Origin: a virus
IMG/VR virus record: IMGVR_UViG_3300046804_004538
Span: 1 to 64,000 of that record
Reading direction: 5' to 3' (one strand)
Length of the DNA: 64,000 nt
Shown here: positions 46,124 to 62,179 of the stretch, piece by piece
How the letters are laid out: each line of letters begins with the position of its first letter
Numbering within the stretch: position 1 is the stretch's first letter
Program-made: the position numbers and the translations under genes
The notes under the pieces: model-generated
The model's database searches: none
The model's input: only the letters and a program-made list of their open reading frames with translations
Told to the model about the DNA's origin: nothing

Positions 46124-46669
46124 TTAAATTGTATGTGCATCTTGTCCACATGATTCATTATATACTTTTATATATGTGTCGTCAAGAACAGACTGCACAG
46201 TTTTTATCGTTTTAGCCGTTTCTTTGTGAAGAATGCCTATGCCGCCTGCCATATTAAAATCATCAATAACATCTTGGGTATCATCAATGAGAATAATATC
46301 TGATTTGGCATAAGTTGCTTTCAAATGACGACCAGGTACGATATTGGCTGTAAAGTCAATGTGATGTCTTTTCAACCAAACCTTTTTCTGTCGCTTTACC
46401 TCTTCATGATGCATACGGCCACCAGAAGAAGAAAGTATCTCTACAGGTATATCAAGAGAGATGATGTATTTCAATAGTTCTTTACCACCAGGATACCAAT
46501 CAAGTGTTTCAAAGTTTTTACCTTCTACGAACTGATTCCATTTATCATCATGCTTTTCACCACGTTCACGTGTGCTTAATGCTTTTTGTTTGAAGATTTC
46601 TTTGTATCTTTGATTGAAATCAGACAGTACACCGTCCATGTCCAGATAAATTTTCTGTATTCGCATCAT
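46124..46669 (-). CDS. HAD-superfamily phosphatase, 5'(3')-deoxyribonucleotidase-like (181 aa)
   Basis: 181 residues. Motif I DMDGVLSDF (nucleophile Asp about residue 10 and second Asp two later), motif II around VEILSSSGG, a basic KRQKKVWLKRH segment and motif IV ILIDDTQDVIDDF. The pattern is that of small HAD hydrolases such as 5'(3')-deoxyribonucleotidases, so a nucleotide-salvage or phosphatase role is likely. It sits between gp59 and gp32, an insertion relative to T4. Its start overlaps the gp59 end by about 50 bases, and the gp32 promoter lies inside its 3' end. Confidence 0.75.
   Translation of the reverse strand: MMRIQKIYLDMDGVLSDFNQRYKEIFKQKALSTRERGEKHDDKWNQFVEGKNFETLDWYPGGKELLKYIISLDIPVEILSSSGGRMHHEEVKRQKKVWLKRHHIDFTANIVPGRHLKATYAKSDIILIDDTQDVIDDFNMAGGIGILHKETAKTIKTVQSVLDDTYIKVYNESCGQDAHTI
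46157..46185 (-). promoter_or_regulatory. Sigma-70-type promoter for gp32
   Basis: On the minus strand TTGACG, 17 bases, TATAAT. The -10 box is perfect and the -35 has one mismatch. It lies about 60 bases before the gp32 ATG, inside the end of the phosphatase gene, so gp32 can be transcribed by unmodified host polymerase and apart from gp33/gp59. Confidence 0.75.
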
Positions 46670-47252
46670 ATTCTTTCTTTAGTATGAGTTTATATTTCGT
46701 TGGCTCAAATGGTATGAACGGTGTATATTTCTTTATTCTTTTACTGATGTTGGGGTAATGAATGGTATCACCAATCTTACGATCCCATGATGGTAAAAAA
46801 CCTAGAACTTGATTGAGTATACAAATAGTTTCAAGTGAGACTTCTTCATGCAACAATTTGATGAGCAAGTCTGGATACTCACCTTCATGCGACATAAACA
46901 AATCATTTGGATTACTATGATTCATTAATGATTCAATTTCATTTGTGAAAGTGTAGGTCAATGATTGAATCACTTTCTGGCGTTTACGATACTCAGCATC
47001 AGCCTCATTAGTGAGTAAATGACCTACCCAAACATTCTGGTCACTAACCAAATTAGCAACAACAAAATCACGGCATATGTCAACATTTGTGAATCTCCGG
47101 CTGAGTTTGTAAAAGTGCCATTTGTCTTTACGATTCTCAAACGCACCAATACTTGTGCTTACTTTACCATTGTACTTAAAGTAATCGTAAGAATCTGAAT
47201 TGAAGTGTAGTTTGAGAGAAGAGTATAAACAAAATGTTTCATAGCCCGTCAT
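46620..47252 (-). CDS. gp59: Helicase loader gp59
   Basis: 210 residues, the same size as T4 gp59 (217). Matching pattern: YSSLKLHFNSDSYDYFKYNG, ENRKDKWHFYKLSRRF (T4 QKRRDKYFFQKLSEKY), CRDFVVANLVSDQNVWVGHL (T4 ALIFISNLVANQDAWIGDI), and a C-terminal half with LLHEEVSLETICILNQVLGF (T4 LLQSNIISFETFILLDSFL). gp59 binds forks and gp32-coated DNA and loads the gp41 helicase. It lies between gp33 and gp32 as in T4 and overlaps gp33 by four bases. Confidence 0.85.
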   Translation of the reverse strand: MTGYETFCLYSSLKLHFNSDSYDYFKYNGKVSTSIGAFENRKDKWHFYKLSRRFTNVDICRDFVVANLVSDQNVWVGHLLTNEADAEYRKRQKVIQSLTYTFTNEIESLMNHSNPNDLFMSHEGEYPDLLIKLLHEEVSLETICILNQVLGFLPSWDRKIGDTIHYPNISKRIKKYTPFIPFEPTKYKLILKKEYDANTENLSGHGRCTV

Positions 47253-49079: not shown

Positions 49080-49274
49080 TTAGTCATTTTTTTCTTCAAC
49101 TAATTTTTGTCTGCGATGATATTCTTTTACGATAAATTTATGCACACCTTTTTTCATATTATTAAAAAGAAATGCTTGTTCTTGTTTTGATAAATTTGAA
49201 AAATTAGGCTCTATAATATTCAACACAGCTAAAGCGATTTCTTTTTGTATTTTTCTATCAATCTTCATCATCAA
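49080..49274 (-). CDS. Small hypothetical protein (64 aa)
   Basis: 64 residues, basic and helical (IQKEIALAVLNIIEPNFSNL, KQEQAFLFNNMKKGVHKFIV, KEYHRRQKLVEEKND). No recognised motif. Its start overlaps the end of the 49271-49981 gene by four bases, so the two are coupled. Coding is supported by the tight packing and amino-acid composition. Confidence 0.55.
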   Translation of the reverse strand: MMMKIDRKIQKEIALAVLNIIEPNFSNLSKQEQAFLFNNMKKGVHKFIVKEYHRRQKLVEEKND

Positions 49275-49981
49275 TCCCAGAGTCCACGATAGTATTTACC
49301 AAATAGACGAAAACCATTATCCATTCGGTCATAAATTTTTTGCATACCATCATAATCACATTGGTATGTGTGATTAGGACCATCTACCATAGTTGATAAA
49401 TTAGGATTGTCTTCACAAGGAACAAACTTCATATCAATCACACCTGAACGATATGCTTCTTCCCATGAATCGTCAAGCAGATGTTCAAAGGCAAAAATCA
49501 TTTCATTCAACACCCATTCCCAACGGCGATGTGTAATATCCCACGATTCTTTTTGGAATTGCTCATCATCTTCAAACTTCAATCTGAATTGTGATGAGCC
49601 ATCATCATAGCCAGTTATACGAAGTTCTTCTGGCACATCTTCAATGTCAACCATAGGTGAACCATGTTTTGTTGCTTGAAGTTGTTTGAGCATTGGCAAA
49701 ATAATATTTGCCAGTGTGTGATCCATTGACCATATATCATACTTGTCAATGCGTACTTTGATTTTGCGTTTCTTGTGACTGTCAATCCAATTAAAGAAAT
49801 CATTCAACCAAGATGATTTGCCGTTTTTATCTTCAGCCAGCCAAGTGCCGAAATCATGAACCCATTCTGGATGCCGTTTGAATCCGTACTCATCAGGTAC
49901 TTTTTTTACCCAAAAGCAAAGTAGTTCTGCTAATTGGTAAGGACCAAACCAATTTGTATAAGGACCAATATAAACACGCAT
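49271..49981 (-). CDS. Conserved marine-phage protein (236 aa)
   Basis: From the ATG at 49981 the protein starts MRVYIGPYTNWFGPYQLAEL and continues LCFWVKKVPDEYGFKRHPEW, VHDFGTWLAE, LPMLKQLQATKHGSP and DITHRRWEWVLNEMIFAFEH LLDDSWEE in one block. I recognise this as a protein repeatedly found in marine T4-like phages, without assigned function. A frame from 50047 would add 22 residues (MLGFKWAV..), but those bases belong to the 3' part of the tmRNA coding piece, so the shorter start is preferred. Confidence 0.75.
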   Translation of the reverse strand: MRVYIGPYTNWFGPYQLAELLCFWVKKVPDEYGFKRHPEWVHDFGTWLAEDKNGKSSWLNDFFNWIDSHKKRKIKVRIDKYDIWSMDHTLANIILPMLKQLQATKHGSPMVDIEDVPEELRITGYDDGSSQFRLKFEDDEQFQKESWDITHRRWEWVLNEMIFAFEHLLDDSWEEAYRSGVIDMKFVPCEDNPNLSTMVDGPNHTYQCDYDGMQKIYDRMDNGFRLFGKYYRGLWD

Positions 49982-50014
49982 GATGTATCTCTGAATATGA
50001 TGTGGACTGTTTTG

Positions 50015-50310
50015 GTAATAAGGTACAGCCCACTTAAACCCCAGCAAGGCTATTTAAGCAGCCATTGCGTAGTAATTATCGTTTGCAGATAATTTATTTG
50101 CTTGATTTACAGTCATCGCCTACTGTGTTGCCTTCTCCACTATCTCACCCTGTCGAAACCAGGTCACCCCCATCAAAAGCACACAATCCCCACTAGAGCC
50201 CTCAGAGGTTTCTTTCATCTAGGACAACTATGTGCTTTTGGTGGAGGTGGGCGGAATTGAACCGCCGTCCAGAATGCCTTCACTTCGAAGGAGTTACAAC
50301 AATTCTTTCT
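50015..50310 (-). ncRNA. ssrA: Circularly permuted (two-piece) tmRNA
   Basis: Read on the minus strand, the gene first gives the acceptor piece: GGAC, T arm GGCGG-TTCAATT-CCGCC (50266-50250), acceptor strand CACCTCC, then ACCA encoded (50242-50239). An intervening segment follows (50238-50172). Then the coding piece starts GGGGGTGACCTGGTTTCGAC (50171-50152), the conserved tmRNA 5' end. GGGGGUG pairs with CACCUCC over seven pairs including G3-U70, the alanine identity element. The tag frame GCA AAC GAT AAT TAC TAC GCA ATG GCT GCT TAA (50086-50054) encodes ANDNYYAMAA; an in-frame GCA at 50101 would give ANKLS plus this. The outer ends (about 50310 and 50015) are estimates. Confidence 0.92.
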
Positions 50311-50459
50311 TGTAGCACACAACGTGCCACGATGTAATCTCTATAACGCACGATTGTTGATGCCACTTCATGGCATTCCTCATATGTATCAAAAGTTTTC
50401 CATTGTGATTCTGTAACTGAACCTGAAATGATAACCGTTACAATGAGTGCGTATAGCAT
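50280..50459 (-). CDS. Small protein with N-terminal hydrophobic segment (59 aa)
   Basis: 59 residues: MLYALIVTVIISGSVTESQW, KTFDTYEECHEVASTIVRYR, DYIVARCVLQERIVVTPSK. A likely signal or membrane segment is followed by a small domain with two cysteines (EECHEV and VARCVL), the layout of small exported phage proteins. The ATG overlaps the stop of 50459-50770 as TAATG, showing coupling. Its 3' end overlaps the estimated 5' end of the tmRNA acceptor piece by about 30 bases. Confidence 0.6.
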   Translation of the reverse strand: MLYALIVTVIISGSVTESQWKTFDTYEECHEVASTIVRYRDYIVARCVLQERIVVTPSK

Positions 50460-50784: not shown

Positions 50785-51330
50785 TTACTTATATGCTGTA
50801 AAAGTTTGATTTGGACCAAGCCTTGTTCTACCTTTACCTCTTTCTTCACCAGGCTTCACTTTAACATTGTAATGCACTTTACCTTGGTTTTCAACTTTAC
50901 CTGATTTAGCAGAAGCATCAAGATGGTGCCAACTACCTTCATGTGAGGTGTGATGAACAGCCAGAATAGATTCTTGTTTATGCTTGTTGCCAACATTTTT
51001 TAAAGCATGAACCATTTTATTATGACCTTCTTTACCTTTTTCAGCGGCATGAACTACATATGAGCCTTCATGACTCACTTCATGTTCACCACCGTATTGA
51101 TATTCACCTTTATGTGGTCCAGACCAACCACCTATATGTCCAGATTTACGGGCATGTTCTAGGTCTTTCTGCATCTCAGTGTGGGCTGCTTTTTTCTTCT
51201 CCGGAGTATTCGTGTGAGGACCTTCGGGAGACAATGCTCCAATACTATGCCCGGAGGCCAAATGTTTATTTACTTTTTGTTGAAGTGGATTACCTTCATC
51301 TAGTTGTACGTGTTGTTTGAATGATAGCAT
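50785..51330 (-). CDS. His/Gly/Lys-rich hypothetical protein (181 aa)
   Basis: 181 residues with unusually many His, Gly and Lys residues (VNKHLASGHSIGALSPEGPH; GGEHEVSHEGSYVVHAAEKG; SILAVHHTSHEGSWHHLD). The start MLSFKQHVQLDEGNPLQQ resembles the 'L-FKQ-L-E' N-termini of several T4-like phage proteins. SD GGAGG lies four bases before the ATG. No catalytic motif is recognised; His-rich repeats may bind metal or fold a small enzyme domain (speculation). Confidence 0.6.
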   Translation of the reverse strand: MLSFKQHVQLDEGNPLQQKVNKHLASGHSIGALSPEGPHTNTPEKKKAAHTEMQKDLEHARKSGHIGGWSGPHKGEYQYGGEHEVSHEGSYVVHAAEKGKEGHNKMVHALKNVGNKHKQESILAVHHTSHEGSWHHLDASAKSGKVENQGKVHYNVKVKPGEERGKGRTRLGPNQTFTAYK

Positions 51331-60021: not shown

Positions 60022-60564
60022 CTAAAAGATAATATCTGCAATTTCATATTCTACCAACTCTTCTGCCGTCAACCAAACATCGGTTGGCCGCAGAAACTTG
60101 GATTTCACATCTTTAACCGACAGTTTTGAACAGTCGGAAAGAATCTTTGCCATCTTGTGATGGTACCTGTCACACTCTTTAGCATATGCCCGCATGTCAT
60201 GATACTTACCACCCATTTCATCATTGAACTGGTGAATCATCACGGTCGTGTTCTTACCAATCGCACGATAGCCTTTTTCACCAGCAGCAAACACCACAAA
60301 TGCCGCACTCATGAGATTACCATATGCAAGTGTACGAACGGGCAAGCCTAGGCCTAACATCAAGTCGGCCAATCCAATCGCATCACCTAGATTACCACCT
60401 TCTGAGTTAATGTGTAGCGTCAGTGGCTTTTCAATCTTGTTGAACTTTGCATAAAGCAGCCAGCGTGATGCAGCCTCAATATTTGTAGGTTCAATGCTAC
60501 CAGACAAAAAGTGTGCATAGTGTTCAAACTGTACTTCTTGTACTTCGTTCTCTTTGTCGCTCAT
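60022..60564 (-). CDS. clpP: ClpP-like serine protease (180 aa)
   Basis: 180 residues (bacterial ClpP about 195). Fold and active site match: PLTLHINSEGGNLGDAIGLA (oxyanion region), AYGNLMSAAFVVFAAGEKGY with the nucleophile Ser of MSAA, TTVMIHQFNDEMGGKYHDMR with the catalytic His of MIHQ, and LRPTDVWLTAEELVEYEIAD with the Asp. A complete Ser-His-Asp triad suggests an active protease. The phage could use it for protein turnover or capsid maturation, or to redirect host Clp (inference). It overlaps galE by 41 bases. Confidence 0.8.
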   Translation of the reverse strand: MSDKENEVQEVQFEHYAHFLSGSIEPTNIEAASRWLLYAKFNKIEKPLTLHINSEGGNLGDAIGLADLMLGLGLPVRTLAYGNLMSAAFVVFAAGEKGYRAIGKNTTVMIHQFNDEMGGKYHDMRAYAKECDRYHHKMAKILSDCSKLSVKDVKSKFLRPTDVWLTAEELVEYEIADIIF

Positions 60565-61516
60565 ACCAATTATATGCCGTTCTCAAAATAGATTTTAAAT
60601 CGTGCTTGGGTTTGAAATTTAGATGTTCTTTGGCGGCATCGGAGTTGGCGACTAGCCTTCGTGGGTCACCTTCTCTTCGTTTACCGATTGTGTATTGAAT
60701 TGGAACTTCTAGTTCCTGTTTAGCAGCATCAATCACTTGTAGTACAGTATAACCTTTACCAGTGCCTAGATTGAATAAACTAGGCTGATTTTTTCCTTTT
60801 TTCTGTAAATATTCGTCAGCCAGAAGATGTGCTTCTGCAACATCAGACACATGAACATAATCACGAATGCAAGTGCCATCTACCGTTTGATAGTCGTTTC
60901 CATATACGATGAACTCTTCGTTATTTAGACTTTTGAACATTAGTGGAATCAAATGCGTTTCTGGTTCATGGTCTTCACCCATCTCACCATCAGGATCAGC
61001 ACCCGACAAATTAAAGAAACGAAAAATAATTGAATTCACTTTCGCATCACGAATCGCACACTCAGCCGCATACTTGCTATTGGCATACGGATTGTTGTTA
61101 TCTATTTCTGCTTTCTCAGAGAGGCTGGTAAACTGAGAACGATAAACGCCGGCAGTAGAAGAATAAACAATATTCTTAACATCAAATTCTCTCATTATTT
61201 GTAACAGATTAGTAGTGCCACCAACATTTACTTGCCAATACTTTTCTGGCTTGTGAACAGATTCACCAACTTCAATCAAACCAGCAAGGTGAAACACTAC
61301 ATCAAATTGTTTTTCATGGACTCTTTGAAAATATTCAAATGTTTCATACAGGTCGTTCAAATTTCTGACATCACCGATTGTGTGATTGTCCCAATACTTT
61401 TTATTTTCTGGAAGCATCAAATCAAAACAGAAAGTATAATACCCTGCTTTTTTGAGTGCTTTCGCTAAATGTGAACCAAGATAACCTGCGCCACCAGTTA
61501 CTAGTGCTGTTCTCAT
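60524..61516 (-). CDS. galE: UDP-glucose 4-epimerase-like SDR (GalE, 330 aa)
   Basis: 330 residues, the normal GalE length. The N-terminal NAD-binding motif VTGGAGYLGSHLAKALKKAG (GxxGxxG), FHLAGLIEVGESVHKPEKYW, the SSTAGVY Ser and the catalytic YxxxK in NPYANSKYAAE, then FRFFNLSGADPDGEMGEDHE and DYVHVSDVAEAHLLA are all present. It interconverts UDP-glucose and UDP-galactose, feeding glycan or LPS synthesis. It starts at the end of the RmlC-like gene (4-base overlap) in a sugar-modification cassette. Confidence 0.9.
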   Translation of the reverse strand: MRTALVTGGAGYLGSHLAKALKKAGYYTFCFDLMLPENKKYWDNHTIGDVRNLNDLYETFEYFQRVHEKQFDVVFHLAGLIEVGESVHKPEKYWQVNVGGTTNLLQIMREFDVKNIVYSSTAGVYRSQFTSLSEKAEIDNNNPYANSKYAAECAIRDAKVNSIIFRFFNLSGADPDGEMGEDHEPETHLIPLMFKSLNNEEFIVYGNDYQTVDGTCIRDYVHVSDVAEAHLLADEYLQKKGKNQPSLFNLGTGKGYTVLQVIDAAKQELEVPIQYTIGKRREGDPRRLVANSDAAKEHLNFKPKHDLKSILRTAYNWYERQRERSTRSTV

Positions 61517-62004
61517 CTATCTCTTTCTGAAAGAATAGGGTTTTTAATTGGCCAGAAGATATTGAAACGCTCGTCGTTCCACTTCACAGTGTATTGTGAA
61601 GCACGGTCATAGTATTGGTCTAGTTTATAACTGAATACACATTTCTCAGACATCACCAAATGTGCATTGCCATGTTTTGGCGGCAGCAGCACTTGATATC
61701 CATTACGGTCAGATAGTGTAAATTCTTGCCATTGTCCGTATTGGTCAGAATCTTCATCAAGATTAATTACAATTTGATAGATTGTGCCATGTAAACAAGA
61801 AACAAGTTTTGTAGTTCTATCATCACCATGAATACCACGTAAGGTATGACGGCGTGATGTAGATACACTATCAAGAATAAAGTTTACACCTAACTGTGCG
61901 TAATTATCTTTGTGCCATGTTTCAATGTTCGTACCACGATAATCTTCATGCACAGTTGGTTTGATGAGTTTTACACCTTTGAGATTTGTATCTTCAATTA
62001 TCAT
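61513..62004 (-). CDS. RmlC-like dTDP-4-dehydrorhamnose 3,5-epimerase family protein (163 aa)
   Basis: 163 residues from the ATG at 62004. Cupin-type epimerase pattern: DTNLKGVKLIKPTVHEDYRG (E-DxRG), FILDSVSTSRRHTLRGIHGD (SxSxxxxLRGxH with the catalytic His), TTKLVSCLHGTIYQIVINLD, LLPPKHGNAHLVMSEKCVFS and YSYKxxxYYD-like FSYKLDQYYD. Family members act on dTDP-4-keto sugars in surface polysaccharide synthesis. With no other rml genes here, its substrate may come from the host. Confidence 0.8.
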   Translation of the reverse strand: MIIEDTNLKGVKLIKPTVHEDYRGTNIETWHKDNYAQLGVNFILDSVSTSRRHTLRGIHGDDRTTKLVSCLHGTIYQIVINLDEDSDQYGQWQEFTLSDRNGYQVLLPPKHGNAHLVMSEKCVFSYKLDQYYDRASQYTVKWNDERFNIFWPIKNPILSERDR

Positions 62005-62179
62005 TAGTTCTACCCCAATCAATCTTTAACCAGACACGTTCATGAATATAATGTAAAATTGTCAAAACAATATTAATTATAATTGCAGCATTGAGTCCTG
62101 ACCATATTGCTGTAACTAATGTGGCGATAACTCTCCATACAACTGCTCGTACTATCGTTCTTTTATGTGTCTCTGACAT
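61994..62179 (-). CDS. DUF2061 membrane protein (61 aa)
   Basis: 61 residues from the ATG at 62179: MSETHKRTIVRAVVWRVIAT, LVTAIWSGLNAAIIINIVLT, ILHYIHERVWLKIDWGR. The KR..VRAVVWRVIAT start, a hydrophobic middle and the YIHERVW end are the DUF2061 pattern. It is a small inner-membrane protein with two helices, found beside glycan genes in several phages and bacteria. The ATG overlaps the glycosyltransferase stop as TAATG. Confidence 0.75.
   Translation of the reverse strand: MSETHKRTIVRAVVWRVIATLVTAIWSGLNAAIIINIVLTILHYIHERVWLKIDWGRTNDN

Follow-up and report, generated by a model that had tools for sequence, protein, structure and literature searches.

An old question about two-piece tmRNAs is why a split gene should be retained together with a spacer that is discarded. 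The locus described here raises this question anew, as the spacer it carries belongs to a set that is conserved, exchanged, sometimes coding, and possibly cargo. The window that we analysed spans 64,000 nucleotides of a virus genome (IMG/VR record IMGVR_UViG_3300046804_004538, positions 1 to 64,000). Our preferred reading, to which we assign a probability of roughly 0.8, is that it holds a T4-like phage's working two-piece tmRNA, of beta type, whose gene doubles as a carrier of exchangeable cargo.

The initial annotation had proposed a phage-encoded, circularly permuted tmRNA from the sequence alone, and this identification is confirmed. ARAGORN calls a tmRNA* at 49963-50331 on the minus strand with the tag ANDNYYAMAA, and the Rfam model tmRNA_permuted (RF04321) matches with 152.1 bits (E 3.2e-30, gathering score 47), alongside 158.2 bits for beta_tmRNA (RF01850, E 7.7e-49). 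The complete permuted gene occupies 49990-50305 on the minus strand and is the single tmRNA match in the whole 71,211-base virus record that holds the window. The gene order proposed at the time, with the acceptor piece 5′ of the TLD strand and tag frame on the minus strand, was correct, its coordinates being right within about 25 bases, and all seven acceptor pairs form as described, including G3-U70. The gene further has A73, an encoded CCA, and a GCA resume codon followed by ANDNYYAMAA and a stop, so that the tag ends in a hydrophobic-AA degron. The 5′ TLD strand reads GGGGGUGACCUGGUUUCGAC, with G1 at 50171 on the minus strand. A chance match is excluded by the E-values together with covariation over 33 relatives, and the tmRNA gene at this locus is genuine and complete. 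Its parts are as follows:

50239-50301, minus strand: 3′ (amino-acid acceptor) piece, with the connector-helix 5′ strand, T arm, CACCUCC and ACCA (RF04321/RF01850 alignments, ARAGORN)
50172-50238, minus strand: intervening segment of 67 nt (cassette c67), a hairpin that extends the acceptor stem (fold z, 25-sequence alignment, covarying closing stem, viral contig scans)
49990-50171, 3′ end approximate, minus strand: 5′ (coding) piece, with GGGGGUG, D-loop analogue, connector helix, tag frame and 3′ hairpin (ARAGORN, Rfam)
50165-50171, minus strand: acceptor stem 5′ strand, G1-G7, pairing with 50243-50249 and including G3-U70 (pairing, covariation)
50243-50249, minus strand: acceptor stem 3′ strand, CACCUCC (pairing, covariation)
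50250-50266, minus strand: T arm, stem GGCGG/CCGCC, loop UUCAAUU (Rfam, covariation)
50054-50086, minus strand: tag reading frame, ANDNYYAMAA-stop (ARAGORN)
50004-50031, minus strand: hairpin 3′ of the tag, covarying in relatives (Rfam, covariation helix 7)

The genes around the tmRNA place it in a recognizable phage locus:

51346-52011, minus strand: PD-(D/E)XK exonuclease, phrog_298, neighbour of the tmRNA by synteny in every close relative as well as in phages Melnitz and Mosig
50785-51330, minus strand: S-adenosylmethionine lyase family protein, PF23780, upstream in the tmRNA operon and likely counter-defence (counter-restriction/BREX)
49271-49981, minus strand: phrog_11543 protein, likely starting at ATG 49981 directly after the tmRNA
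46620-47252, minus strand: T4 gp59-like DNA helicase loader, downstream, at the same locus in Melnitz and also downstream in Mosig

The tmRNA lies between the exonuclease and the gp59-like loader, as it does in Methylophilales phage Melnitz, which infects OM43, and Pelagibacter phage Mosig, which infects SAR11. A gp6-like wedge, a tail tube and the gp59 loader identify the phage as T4-like, and among the matches listed the gp6 baseplate protein has its closest relatives, about 40% identical, in Melnitz, Mosig and cyanophages. All 47 of the 47 IMG/VR contigs that have a closely related exonuclease and enough downstream sequence carry the tmRNA (L010 by Rfam), and it is absent from four contigs whose exonuclease is 44-47% identical. 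Phage tmRNAs had been described as uncommon; this is accurate for GenBank phages, 2.3% of which carry one (PMC9004378), and does not apply to this lineage. The T4 late-promoter motif TATAAATA is absent near the tmRNA, and a promoter and terminator scan stayed at chance level. Several further features were noted in and around this region. The SAM-lyase family gene is the third gene upstream of the tmRNA, a 59-codon ORF at 50280-50459 (minus strand) overlaps the 5′ part of the acceptor piece with its end and the upstream gene with its start, and genes for a nucleotide-sugar epimerase and a dTDP-4-dehydrorhamnose 3,5-epimerase lie at 60524-62022 (minus strand). Distant phages with a phrog_11543 relative (L109, L111, L105, L106) have alpha-scoring permuted tmRNAs nearby (63-71 bits), and related phages (L003, L118, L131-L133) carry tRNAs with the anticodon CUA (ARAGORN: Pyl), which are possible amber suppressors.

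The intervening cassette was absent from the initial annotation. Its 67 nt fold back and extend the acceptor stem (z -4.65 with the stem, -3.26 alone), and the window's close relatives have unrelated segments of 25, 28, 30, 56, 59, 67, 71, 82, 84, 87, 88, 90 and 159 nt. Across 174 unique phage tmRNAs, the segments fall into 90 unrelated clusters of 4-248 nt, 27 of which have at least two members. When 2.9 million viral contigs were scanned for exact copies of three cassette cores, 31, 10 and 20 matches came up; all of those examined were in permuted tmRNAs with differing bodies, placed between CCA and G1. Scanning by the tmRNA 5′ end and not by cassette, with a pattern that required the ending U-G-A-U, gave further types among the matches listed. 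A 33-nt bacterial match to one cassette (G348) lies outside any tmRNA and looks like chance.

The same cassette is shared by tmRNAs that are otherwise well diverged. Median identity is 0.977 (97.7%) for the cassette versus 0.770 (77.0%) for the tmRNA bodies in the 21 members of c87, and 0.910 (91.0%) versus 0.691 (69.1%) in the 17 members of c67; scanning by the c87, c59 or c67 core favours shared cassettes, and an unselected sample gives the same effect with fewer pairs. Phage tmRNAs not chosen by cassette include 22 pairs with bodies less than 80% and cassettes at least 85% identical. In a control of 80 bacterial tmRNAs (median spacer 32 nt), spacer identity is at most 0.73 when the bodies are less than 0.80 alike. 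On the body tree, 14 changes are needed for the 21 c87 carriers and 13 for the 17 c67 carriers, counts that recombination within tmRNA bodies could inflate. The window and contig L021 have coding pieces that are identical between acceptor stem and tag, and their stems and cassettes differ, as expected if a single short stretch with the cassette and the two strands of the acceptor stem had been exchanged. Because the acceptor strands flank the slot in the permuted order, a single short exchange would swap stem and cargo together with pairing kept. We consider it probable that the permuted tmRNA serves as a vehicle in a large uncultivated T4-like phage group, with a hypervariable slot for structured RNAs or for membrane and other microproteins that are exchanged and perhaps act in counter-defence or host takeover.

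The window's own cassette points to the first kind of cargo. The c67 core (GUUGUCCUAGAUGAAAGAAACCUCUKAGGGCUCUAG) is almost invariant over more than 30 nt in 25 distinct copies, and the closing stem changes by compensation; the inner stems never vary, so that covariation support is limited to the closing stem. On inspection, c67 was rejected as a coding sequence, as it has no Shine-Dalgarno sequence and its reading frame is lost in variants that are 5 nt longer. It reaches the gathering score of no Rfam family, the matches being at chance level. A related short form is found in the spacer of Mosig, which shares the motif GUCCUAGAUGAARGAAA, and in several other phage tmRNAs. Outside tmRNA, one c67 copy directly follows the CCA of a tRNA-Thr (contig L459:983-1049), and the short form occurs as a free-standing hairpin between phage genes in L458 and L467.

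Other segments appear to encode small proteins. An ORF with a Shine-Dalgarno sequence and start that covers at least 70% of the spacer is present in 20 of the 50 types of at least 75 nt, versus 0.92 expected in shuffles. Many spacer ORFs share a stop position one base before G1 of the tmRNA 5′ piece, and the predicted products are often single-span membrane peptides. These include a six-member family of membrane peptides that are 23-24 aa long and acidic at the N-terminus (MNDNLNSLAIGVVIVLIVFALVLL and relatives), a Cys-rich peptide that five phages conserve (the sequence of one of them was read off its spacer by eye), and a 73-aa ORF that matches Pfam PGDYG just above the cut-off. In the Melnitz spacer (L237:7985-8437) there is likewise a 54-codon ORF with a Shine-Dalgarno sequence; this ORF is unannotated and runs into the coding piece. 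The coding signal suggests that such micro-ORFs are translated.

A simpler account would treat the segment as a processing spacer only, for which any hairpin that prolongs the acceptor stem suffices; shared cassettes would then stem from frequent homologous recombination between co-circulating phages via the conserved tmRNA ends, and the ORFs would be functionless gene scraps. All segment types have the closing hairpin in common, in nearly all of them UGAU directly precedes G1 (an ending that was part of the pattern in one scan), close relatives have short hairpins of 25-30 nt as segments, and the difference between the window and L021 is what one short exchange tract would give. However, a spacer of this kind would not readily account for cassettes that are far better conserved than the surrounding tmRNA, which bacterial spacers are not, or for a c67 core that stays invariant over more than 30 nt across 25 sequences. 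It is also at odds with a 20-fold enrichment of micro-ORFs whose protein sequence, start context and stop position are kept, and with c67-like elements that occur after tRNA-Thr and outside tmRNA. We find this account doubtful, though it deserves some weight.

Selfish mobility offers another explanation for the exchange of cassettes, which would be RNA or DNA elements that target the CCA end of tmRNA and tRNA genes. The presence of one cassette in very different tmRNA bodies, and of c67 exactly after the CCA of tRNA-Thr in L459, would suit such an element, but a mobility protein is absent and the cassettes are almost never found outside tmRNA. Searches of other genomes also argue against it: no c87, c59 or c67 element was found in 399 Burkholderiales genomes, a model search found no c67 in 359 Pseudomonadota genomes (a set without a positive control), and GenBank phages contain no copy of c67 (by blastn) or c87. 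We therefore regard selfish elements as unlikely and return to the reading in which the cassettes are cargo of a working tmRNA.

That the carrier itself works is indicated by covariation over the 33 relatives. Standard pairs fill 94.5% of paired cells versus 84.0 +/- 0.6 in shuffles, and 131 cells are compensatory versus 44 in shuffles. Acceptor pairs 4-6 vary on both sides with pairing kept in every sequence, and position 3-70 is G-U in 33/33. Among the 174 unique phage tmRNAs, which were extracted with G3 and seven pairs required and with U70 and A73 free, U70 is present in 173 and A73 in all 174. The tags are diverse across phage copies, and almost all end in AA. Given the acceptor-stem covariation with all pairs kept and the invariant G3-U70, we conclude that the phage tmRNA is under selection as a functional RNA that is predicted to be chargeable with alanine. 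As a separate observation, the combination of T-loop position 55 with D-loop position 18 reads U/G in 160, G/A in 16 and G/G in 7 of 183 phage tmRNAs, A18 never occurring with U55. The joint change from U/G to G/A in 16 phage tmRNAs suggests that the two pieces covary through a tertiary contact at the elbow, and alpha-host-like GGCGGTA loops keep G18.

The most likely route from transcript to function is as follows. In the folded operon transcript, the acceptor stem would be lengthened by the intervening hairpin, and host RNase P cleavage at G1, together with 3′ processing to the encoded CCA, would excise the 67-nt segment. The acceptor and coding pieces would stay joined by the acceptor stem and connector helix, and host AlaRS would charge the tmRNA via G3-U70. 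Neither the 71-kb record nor six related contigs contain an SmpB gene, so SmpB must be supplied by the host, which with EF-Tu would deliver the tmRNA to stalled ribosomes. The stalled product would receive the ANDNYYAMAA tag for proteolysis, and ribosomes would be recycled while mRNA is degraded during infection. Rescue of ribosomes on cleaved mRNA is the best functional reading that the sequence suggests. The excised segment or the uncut precursor may in turn deliver the cargo, either a structured small RNA (c67 in the window) or a translated micro-ORF. A role in inhibiting the host tmRNA, or as a decoy for it, would also fit the lack of an encoded SmpB and has a reported precedent in the tag-less form of phage DS6A (cited in PMC11915505). 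Such a role is very improbable here, however, as almost every copy has an intact tag frame ending in AA and covariation extends over the whole structure.

As to where this tmRNA comes from, our results correct the origin first proposed for it from alpha to beta type. The covariance-model and ARAGORN checks suggested with the initial annotation both return a match, that of the alpha model (RF01849) reaching just 53.0 bits over a cut-off of 50, which is 105 bits under the beta model; the cyano model gives 45.9 bits. Assignment to the beta type (RF01850) rests on the best score and on grouping with beta hosts, which has moderate support, and the phage is accordingly predicted to infect a beta host. 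In a tree of 126 tmRNAs, the 37 phage copies form one clade (SH-aLRT 97), which is nested together with beta-host tmRNAs in a wider group (SH-aLRT 86 and 93, moderate), and alpha hosts are all elsewhere, together with Melnitz. Capture from alphaproteobacteria is scarcely credible: although the alpha model gives the best score for the syntenic tmRNAs of Melnitz and Mosig, the window's tmRNA is not of alpha type, it has a 10-aa tag of beta character, and model scores (beta 158 versus alpha 53 and cyano 46 bits) and tree contradict this origin. None of about 85,000 species genomes scanned holds an exact copy of the phage's D-region signature, so that no direct donor emerged, and the best beta-host match has 78% identity over 130 nt. 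On these two grounds, the phage lineage has long been separate. Either an ancestral phage tmRNA was replaced by host-suited types, or one old phage gene diverged.

The phage tmRNA shares its piece order, TLD, connector helix and short tag ending in AA with the two-piece tmRNA of Betaproteobacteria. It differs in score, as nine beta genomes chosen by tmRNA pattern give 235-294 bits under RF01850 versus 158 for the phage, and in its intervening segments, which are larger and exchangeable in phages whereas the host spacer has a median of 32 nt. Among bacteria, Cupriavidus plasmids (L137, L161) bear additional genes for permuted tmRNAs, and the stem GGGCCTG with the tag ANDEKFALAA is present in L137 and in the strain behind L144 (G005, with two strong tmRNAs).

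Phage-encoded permuted tmRNAs have already been published, those of Melnitz and Mosig among them, and the count of two-piece structures in phages stood at 53 by 2021 (PMC9004378). Melnitz and Mosig resemble the window in being T4-like, in having a permuted tmRNA and in the exonuclease/tmRNA/helicase loader locus, but their tmRNAs score as alpha type (107 and 68 bits, respectively), and Melnitz differs further in the glutamine riboswitch downstream of its tmRNA and in its 54-codon spacer ORF. A 2025 tmRNA database lists one intervening sequence with a tRNA-Ala gene (archaeal-binned) and one with a repetitive element (PMC11915505). Those are single cases, whereas the phage set comprises many families, coding and non-coding, that are exchanged. 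The open-access literature searched, outside which several key older papers lie, makes no mention of micro-ORFs, or of RNA cassettes open to exchange, in the spacers of phage tmRNAs. What appears new at this locus is the intervening segment and not the phage permuted tmRNA itself.

If this reading is true, one transcript would yield both a ribosome-rescue RNA and a small RNA or microprotein, and the spacer of a two-piece tmRNA would in these phages be more than a discarded part. The cargo would then consist of small effectors, whose rapid exchange looks like conflict with hosts or rival phages. The cassettes c67, c87, c59 and others, together with the spacer peptides, form a defined set to test in phage-host conflict.
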